Below are positions 21,869 through 22,882 of a DNA stretch of 23,616 nt, piece by piece. The notes under the pieces were generated by a model. It was given only the letters and a program-made list of their open reading frames with translations. It was not told the DNA's origin and ran no database searches. Made by a program: the position numbers and the translations under genes. Source of the stretch: a virus; the IMG/VR virus record IMGVR_UViG_3300025781_000077, positions 1 through 23,616 of that record; one strand, 5' to 3'. Every line of letters starts with the position of its first letter. Within the stretch, counting starts at the first letter, position 1.

Positions 21869-21945
21869 TGGCGGTCCCAAGGGGATTCGAACCCCTGTTG
21901 ACGGCGTGACAAGCCGCTGTAATCACCAGGCTATACTATGAGACC
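21869..21945 (-). tRNA. tRNA-Asp(GUC)
   Basis: Acceptor GGTCTCA/TGGGACC, discriminator G, encoded CCA, anticodon loop TTGTCAC. Its first three bases belong to the inverted repeat upstream. Confidence 0.95.
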
Positions 21946-22029
21946 ATATAAAAACACATTGCGACACCCCTTGTGAGCCTATTGTGTCATTCATCTCACC
22001 GCTTCTAGGGCAATGTGTTTTTATATGGT
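21943..22029 (-). repeat. Perfect 20-bp inverted repeat around a 47-base loop, Lys-Asp spacer
   Basis: ACCATATAAAAACACATTGC (minus strand 22029-22010) and its exact complement (21962-21943) bound a 47-base loop. The upstream arm begins with the discriminator and CCA of tRNA-Lys; the downstream arm ends with the first three bases of tRNA-Asp. In the transcript the two tRNAs would sit at the foot of a long stem. The loop contains GTGAG/CTCAC and GACAC/GTGTC in interleaved order. No ORF of note. Confidence 0.9.
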
Positions 22030-22100
22030 AGGGACACAGAGAATCGAACTCTGATTTACTGGTTAAAAGCCAGTTACTTTAGCCGTTAAGTTATATCCCC
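22026..22100 (-). tRNA. tRNA-Lys(UUU)
   Basis: Acceptor GGGGATA/TGTCCCT with G1-T72, discriminator A, encoded CCA, anticodon stem ACTGG/CCAGT with loop CTTTTAA. Flanked on both sides by long inverted repeats. Confidence 0.95.
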
Positions 22101-22105
22101 AATAA

Positions 22106-22232
22106 TACCATTTGTTTTGCTGACGCACTATTTGCTACGTTCAACGGAATTAGTGGCCACCTTACCGTTTATATACGCAGTTACTCAGGGTTGACGTTTC
22201 CCCCATGGCTTACGTCAGCAAAACAAATGGTA
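22106..22232 (-). repeat. Perfect 20-bp inverted repeat around an 87-base loop, Glu-Lys spacer
   Basis: TACCATTTGTTTTGCTGACG (minus strand 22232-22213) and its exact complement (22125-22106) enclose 87 bases. The upstream arm starts with position 72, the discriminator and CCA of tRNA-Glu; the downstream arm stops five bases before tRNA-Lys. The loop can form AACGG/CCGTT with an inner GTGGCCAC palindrome, and TGACGT at the stem end can instead pair with ACGTCA 14 bases later. The arms share no sequence with the next repeat, only the design. Confidence 0.9.
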
Positions 22233-22302
22233 CTCGGTACCAGAATCGAACTGGTCTTCCCGCCGTGAAAGAGCGGTGTCCTAACCGATAGACGAACCGA
22301 GC
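22228..22302 (-). tRNA. tRNA-Glu(UUC)
   Basis: Acceptor GCTCGGT/ACCGAGT (G1-T72), discriminator A, encoded CCA, anticodon stem CCGCT/GGCGG with loop CTTTCAC. First tRNA of the transcript from the promoter at 22337-22365. Confidence 0.95.
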
Positions 22303-22314
22303 AAAAACTACCTC

Positions 22315-22330
22315 AAATTTTTAAAGAACA
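22315..22330 (-). promoter_or_regulatory. boxA-like antitermination sequence
   Basis: TGTTCTTTAAAAATTT lies between the promoter and tRNA-Glu on the minus strand. It resembles the boxA of proteobacterial rRNA leaders and spacers (E. coli TGCTCTTTAACA), where NusB-NusE bind. Confidence 0.5.
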
Positions 22331-22336
22331 GACTCT

Positions 22337-22365
22337 AGTGTAACACACTAAAAATCATTTGTCAA
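22337..22365 (-). promoter_or_regulatory. Sigma70-type promoter (TTGACA-N17-TACACT)
   Basis: Perfect -35 at 22360-22365, 17-base spacer, 4/6 -10 box at 22337-22342. The predicted start near 22330 leads into the boxA-like leader and the Glu-Lys-Asp tRNA run. Confidence 0.75.
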
Positions 22366-22368
22366 TAC

Positions 22369-22390
22369 TTTGTTGCAAGATTACAACAAA
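22369..22390 (-). repeat. 7-bp inverted repeat just upstream of the promoter
   Basis: TTTGTTG / CAACAAA around an 8-base loop, directly between tRNA-Cys and the -35 box of the next promoter. It may end or process the upstream tRNA transcript; there is no clean U-run. Confidence 0.45.
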
Positions 22391-22573: not shown

Positions 22574-22665
22574 TGGCGGAAGTCGGAGGAGTCGAACCCC
22601 ATCCCATTTCTGAGAACCCAGTTTTCAAGGCTGGTCGGCGCACCAACGCACCTGCATCAACTTCC
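22574..22665 (-). tRNA. tRNA-Ser(UGA)
   Basis: Class II tRNA: acceptor GGAAGTT/GACTTCC, discriminator G, encoded CCA, anticodon loop CTTGAAA, long variable arm similar to tRNA-Ser(GCU). It begins nine bases after the terminator stem, inside or just after its U-run. Confidence 0.95.
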
Positions 22666-22670
22666 AAAAA

Positions 22671-22702
22671 CAAAAAACCCCTAGTTTTTACGCTAGGGGT
22701 TT
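22671..22702 (-). terminator. Intrinsic terminator
   Basis: AAACCCCTAG / CTAGGGGTTT, a perfect 10-bp stem with an 8-base loop (22675-22702), followed on the minus strand by a T-rich run. It closes the small transcript from the promoter at 22850-22882. The opposite reading also has a T-rich flank but is less clean. Confidence 0.85.
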
Positions 22703-22849: not shown

Positions 22850-22882
22850 TCTATTATATAGCAATTTTTAATTCTTGTCAAT
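22850..22882 (-). promoter_or_regulatory. Perfect sigma70-type promoter (TTGACA-N17-TATAAT)
   Basis: On the minus strand TTGACA and TATAAT are separated by exactly 17 bases in the non-coding stretch between tRNA-Met(22923) and the minigene. Predicted start near 22843, about 25 bases before the ORF. Confidence 0.88.

Follow-up and report, generated by a model that had tools for sequence, protein, structure and literature searches.

The spacer between tRNA-Glu and tRNA-Lys at positions 22106-22232 (minus strand) of the window, the whole 23,616-nucleotide stretch of virus DNA analysed here (IMG/VR record IMGVR_UViG_3300025781_000077), encodes a structured noncoding RNA of about 127 nt that belongs to a new family, which we call family A. 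That family A is a real structured RNA is practically certain, and we have good though not full confidence in the fuller statement that it is a structured RNA with self-pairing loops whose copies probably stick together. A repeat search recovered the exact inverted repeat on which the original prediction was built, with 20-nt arms at 22106-22125 and 22213-22232 that are 100% complementary and enclose 87 nt. The repeat frames nearly the whole spacer, the Lys-side arm ending 5 nt short of tRNA-Lys, and ARAGORN places the 3'-end ACCA of tRNA-Glu (22228-22231) inside the minus-strand 5' arm, so that both the perfect 20-bp repeat and the presence of the tRNA-Glu CCA in its upstream arm hold as predicted. 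Folding of the minus-strand 127-nt RNA gave -49.7 kcal/mol (z = -6.2), which none of 200 shuffles equalled, and lengthened the 20-bp repeat to a 22-bp stem. The original prediction had overlooked the conservation of stem and interior in about 120 other contigs, as well as a second exact 20-bp repeat in the Lys-Asp spacer. As the DNA polymerase of the window is T4-like (49% identity to cyanophage gp43), this copy of family A belongs to a T4-like phage.

Features of the window around the family-A element (all on the minus strand)
Feature	Position	Strand	Evidence and remarks
Family-A RNA, whole element, ~127 nt	22106..22232	-	covariance model R1, 148 bits, E 5e-30 (copy among the sequences used to build R1); alignment A3, 80 distinct members
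tRNA-Glu (ttc)	22228..22302	-	ARAGORN; immediately upstream of family-A element
tRNA-Lys (ttt)	22026..22100	-	ARAGORN; immediately downstream of family-A element
P1 5' strand	22211..22232	-	repeat search, fold, helix 1 of covariation analysis; 22228-22231 also tRNA-Glu ACCA
P1 3' strand	22106..22127	-	repeat search, fold, covariation
P2 hairpin (GGG/CCC)	22188..22203	-	helix 2 of covariation analysis; L2 ACGT at 22194-22197
P3 (22175-22180 with 22135-22140) enclosing P4 (22165-22168 with 22144-22147)	22135..22180	-	helices 3 and 4 of covariation analysis, MFE fold
L4 palindrome GTGGCCAC, proposed symmetric kissing loop	22153..22160	-	palindrome shuffles, per-pair analysis
Type B element, Lys-Asp spacer	21943..22029	-	repeat search; exact 20-bp stem 21943-21962/22010-22029, 47-nt interior
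Sigma-70-type promoter TTGACA-17-TACACT	22337..22365	-	promoter scan
boxA-like leader motif TGTTCTTTAAAAATTT	22315..22330	-	leader motif comparison

The 20-mer arm is present in 53 IMG/VR stretches, with the same surrounding element in all of them. Two broader DNA patterns and covariance model R1, which was built from 46 sequences, led to about 120 uncultured phage contigs (IMG/VR), a number that is a tally of result rows and includes many members retrieved by patterns taken from family A's own sequence; one broader pattern that did not contain the P1 sequence of the window brought in members with unrelated and yet pairing P1. One forward copy was found in each of 14 large records (96-367 kb), additional rows in this count being the reverse strand at the same place. 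Carriers of family A are T4-like and perhaps other uncultured phages. Every locus lies in a phage tRNA island, as do GOLLD and ROOL-like assemblies, with a median of 17 tRNA genes and with the member on the tRNA strand within the array. In 39 of 83 members the gene directly upstream is tRNA-Glu, in 34 of the 83 tRNA-Lys follows within 30 nt, and the next gene typically begins 1-6 nt downstream. About half of the members (40/83) have a P1 that overlaps a tRNA CCA, whereas in many others the tRNA lies ~210 nt upstream with another stem element in between; the overlap is therefore not required. The suggestion that the stem sets the ends of the flanking tRNAs is thus not general.

Family A was absent from the catalogues that we searched. 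When 50,697 phage records were searched by BLASTN with three members and a conserved 31-mer, no related match came back; the method is poorly suited to diverged RNA, and isolated phages may therefore still carry the family. A 20-base pattern searched in 84,980 prokaryote genomes hit a single contig (L252), which has no covariance-model match. Among the 4227 families of Rfam, including GOLLD, ROOL and OLE, none reaches its gathering threshold for family A. The segment 21940-22235 of the window matched just tRNA-Lys, apart from a chance sub-threshold match, two further members gave either a best score of 20.7 bits where 96 are needed (L214) or no match (L223), and a wider Rfam scan of the loci contained no family-A match among the best 150 of 314 matches. 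No description of a family-A RNA was found in open-licence papers. A small ORF as explanation was discarded, as just 20-30 aa frames cross the element and its variation follows pairing. As a separate observation in the same array, a tRNA-like gene missed by ARAGORN lies at 22578-22665 (minus strand); it has a sub-threshold tRNA-Sec score in Rfam and is more likely a tRNA-Ser than a tRNA-Sec.

The structure of family A consists of P1 (21 pairs), P2, P3 and P4, 36 pairs in total, and was evaluated in 83 model-aligned members comprising 80 distinct sequences. In this alignment, which had been fitted to the structure beforehand, 96.7% of cells were paired, compared with 76.3% after shuffling and at most 48% with slid partners, the covariation score was 0.566 against 0.173 in shuffles, double-sided changes occurred in 29 of 36 pairs, and no shuffle reached any of five measures. 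RNAalifold recovered the same helices from a structure-free MAFFT alignment, with double-sided changes in 24 of the 36 pairs. P1 alone was paired in 98.2% of cells, and 17 of its 21 pairs carried double-sided changes: its sequence has been rewritten many times with the pairing kept. Related phages therefore show the reverse of a spacer that keeps its sequence and loses its pairing, and the original prediction survives the comparison. Conservation extends from the stem into the interior, which is conserved and covarying, and includes the invariant single-stranded joints GTAAGC, TAAC and GCA.A.AGT.C. As the interior helices covary and the joints are invariant, the 87-nt "payload" and the stem together make up one RNA.

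The original prediction further held that the stem is a processing stalk that frees the enclosed RNA. The structured RNA and the selection on its stem as RNA stand, but the inert payload does not, given the covarying interior and its invariant joints. P1 has the duplex expected of an RNase III processing stalk (~20 bp or more, perfect); the spacer RNA is probably excised from the transcript, and cleavage of the P1 stem by RNase III is possible as judged from the sequence. An internal TGACGT/ACGTCA pairing, which had been read as hinting at a switch, exists in the window copy but is not conserved as a switch across the family. Of the 43 members whose loop is ACGT, 36 have at least 6 bp of such complementarity, but in members with GATC or GTAC it is mostly 3-4 bp, which rules it out as a family feature.

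The loops of P2 and P4 carry a second pattern. In L4 a palindrome of at least 6 nt was present in 41 of 41 distinct segments (shuffles: mean 7.7, maximum 16) and one of at least 8 nt in 36 of 41 (mean 1.8, maximum 7), and yet the members contain 17 distinct octamers with nine core hexamers, only the symmetry being kept. The pairs -1/+1, -2/+2 and -3/+3 were Watson-Crick in all 17 distinct octamers, the strongest being -2/+2 with three pair types (17/17 against a shuffle maximum of 13); as L4 was defined by the longest palindrome of its segment, these per-pair figures are biased upward, whereas the palindrome shuffles apply the same choice. The core of L2 was always self-complementary, being ACGT, GATC, GTAC, GCGC or CTAG, in a count that searched for the five tetramers seen and had no shuffle control. 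A tree from which the loop columns had been left out required a minimum of 9 palindrome-to-palindrome changes for L2 and 31 for L4, which are rough counts, as the tree is that of a short element and recombination could inflate them. The self-complementary loop bases covary and are unable to pair in cis, as in GOLLD and ROOL-like assemblies; since adjacent loop bases cannot pair with each other, the pattern argues for contacts between two copies. The loop palindromes of OLE L9.3 and GOLLD L21a likewise switch, for example from GGCC to GAUC or AGCU (PMC12286853), and the argument made there for an intermolecular contact is the one that we apply to family A. L2 and L4 are thus most likely symmetric kissing loops that join RNA copies, as far as sequence comparison can tell; for L4 a 2-bp mini-hairpin closing a tetraloop is an alternative.

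The second repeat of the window, in the Lys-Asp spacer, belongs to another kind of element, type B, whose stem here begins with the ACCA of tRNA-Lys and ends in the initial GGT of tRNA-Asp. B-like stems occur in more than 120 stretches among the matches listed; a type B stem has its start at a tRNA CCA and in many cases reaches two bases into the tRNA that follows. The conserved stem CCATATARAAACACAYT...ARTGTGTTTYTATATGG of type B was seen at L007, L022 and over 100 further loci, its commonest form having an A.C mismatch at position 8 and a U.G pair at 16, and BLASTN of a type B element against the 50,697 phage records gave no related match. The interiors are very variable (133 distinct, in 86 groups). 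In one subgroup (L131, L093, L142, L168) the element reads GATAAGCAGGAACT...AGGTCGCCTCG, or GGGTCGCCTCG in L168, and its hairpin loop is palindromic (TGGCCA, TGTACA or TTCGAA), and some interiors (L134, L198, L105, L136) resemble decayed tRNAs with GGTTCGATTCC T-arm motifs. The palindromic-loop test applied to stem elements other than family A was weakly positive (13 of 109 loops, 4.7 expected), an excess partly due to the TTCGAA of tRNA-like T loops. Further recurrent and apparently uncatalogued spacer families were noticed (L040, L070, L083, L119, L114 and others), one with 170-230 nt elements framed by GTTTTGTAAGTG...CACTTACAAATT, others with GGTATCG...GGACGC elements or AGGATACTT-CAGCAA...AAGTATCCTGTTG elements.

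Could P1 be a processing stalk and nothing else, an RNase III-type substrate that parts tRNA-Glu from tRNA-Lys around a filler? Such a stalk would look much like P1, a long and perfect duplex that separates two tRNAs and, in most members, ends 1-6 nt before the second of them; yet family A has a conserved interior that includes invariant joints and covarying P2-P4, and there is one copy per genome despite the many spacers of each array. We therefore hold this reading to be quite unlikely for family A; it fits type B better, where a conserved stem encloses interiors that fall into 86 groups among 133 distinct elements. The exact inverted repeats at the spacer edges could also belong to a mobile element of the MITE or REP kind inserted at tRNA 3' ends. 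Type B stems, which recur at 1-3 per locus around variable interiors and of which 149 out of 178 have a tRNA CCA as their exact start, agree with that idea, which for type B is not disfavoured as it is for family A. For family A it is highly improbable, as the element occurs once per genome and always in tRNA arrays, with neither the many copies nor the conserved termini of a MITE, and its arms change in compensation, unlike transposon ends.

Two other explanations concern the palindromes themselves. Dimeric proteins that bind dyad sites, and restriction or modification enzymes, typically recognise self-complementary 4-8 mers, so the palindromes might work as DNA; however, they are located in the loops of two RNA hairpins with covarying stems, and a protein target should keep its sequence, whereas L4 has nine core hexamers and L2 five tetramers, and we judge a role as DNA very unlikely. 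It is somewhat easier to imagine, though still unlikely, that the structured RNA acts as a monomer, for instance as a binding partner of a protein or the ribosome, in which the palindromic loops would make other contacts. In favour of a monomer, the structure is well supported and oligomerisation is inferred, and L2 of the window copy, self-complementary over just 4 nt, is weak alone; a monomer would nevertheless leave unexplained why two loop centres retain two-fold complementarity through many changes. Contact between copies through L2 and L4 remains the reading that we prefer.

Where tRNA-Glu precedes family A, its leader usually has a sigma-70-type promoter and a boxA-like motif. The promoter was found in 37 of 49 distinct Glu leaders preceding family A as compared to 211 of 3109 other tRNA upstream regions, the leader motif, which we take to resemble rRNA boxA, in 31 of 49 as compared to 105 of 3109 controls, and the promoter followed by the motif in 28 of 49 as compared to 64 of 3109 other tRNAs. 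Upstream of this leader (22315-22365) in the window a hairpin, TTGTTGTAATCTTGCAACAA (22370-22389, minus strand), is possibly the end of an upstream tRNA-Cys unit. A perfect 12/12 sigma-70 match and a strong intrinsic terminator-like hairpin were also noted at 22853-22881 and 22675-22702 (minus strand), near the tRNA-Ser/tRNA-Met boundary.

Among known RNAs, GOLLD (RF02032) is similarly phage-encoded near tRNA islands. It is a homo-oligomer whose symmetric kissing loops are backed by covarying self-complementary loop bases (PMC12286853), whereas the oligomers of family A are inferred from sequence; GOLLD members are often longer than 800 nt and have another structure, and the ~127 nt of family A have no GOLLD match. 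As GOLLD is also encoded in 2 of the 14 family-A genomes, within ~1 kb and ~5 kb of family A, the latter is a companion and not a version of GOLLD. ROOL is a phage or prophage RNA near tRNA islands that forms an RNA-only multimer (PMC12286853), but at ~660 nt with multiple pseudoknots it differs from family A, for which the full Rfam scan gave no ROOL match. In OLE, a large bacterial RNA with protein partners and in this unlike a phage tRNA-array RNA, the switching of the L9.3 loop tetramer between palindromes was read as a symmetric intermolecular contact (PMC12286853). At L114 (1-458), L256 and L257, GOLLD RNA shares its tRNA array with family-A or type B elements or lies in an adjoining array. 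The precedent named in the original prediction, the stable RNAs C (139 nt) and D (119 nt) annotated as adjoining the T4 tRNAs, shares with family A its place in a tRNA cluster but has no covariance-model match: an unfiltered cmsearch over the T4 tRNA cluster gave a best E of 0.3, with 0 of 30 weak matches over RNA C or D. Their predicted folds have neither a comparable long framing P1 stem nor a palindromic hairpin loop, save a tRNA-like TTCGAAT loop in RNA C, and together with the covariance model these folds rule out homology. RNA-RNA assembly by loop-loop pairing is familiar from the retroviral dimerisation site and phi29 pRNA, and it is for this proposed mode of contact alone that we compare them with family A. 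Both have been cited as precedents (PMC12286853).

Based on these data we propose that the family-A RNA would be co-transcribed with the tRNAs, usually from the promoter upstream of tRNA-Glu and behind the boxA-like leader, and cut out at the base of P1 by tRNA-trimming enzymes, perhaps with RNase III. It would then adopt the fold that the covariation demonstrates, a long P1, the P2 hairpin and the P3/P4 arm, and L2 of one copy would most likely pair with L2 of another, and L4 with L4. With two such symmetric contacts of different kinds on each RNA, dimers, closed rings or chains would be expected. As a tentative possibility we put forward that family A comprises small (~127 nt) RNAs, well below GOLLD, ROOL or OLE in size, assembling into defined RNA-only rings, cages or chains via two independent symmetric kissing loops, each of which jumps from palindrome to palindrome, so that an RNA would pair best with its own kind rather than with that of a rival phage. 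As a guess at its role, family A may supply a plentiful scaffold or cage of RNA next to the tRNAs, by analogy with the proposals made for GOLLD and ROOL.

Homo-oligomers of RNA are rare in nature, and those described so far are mostly large. If our reading is true, family A, at 127 nt and with a pair of covarying palindromic loops, would stand out among natural RNA assemblies for its simplicity and be easy to make and test, and as family A resides in tRNA arrays, sometimes beside GOLLD, the question why tRNA islands carry self-assembling RNAs would become testable. Our results suggest that the "spacers" of phage tRNA arrays hold largely uncatalogued structured RNAs.
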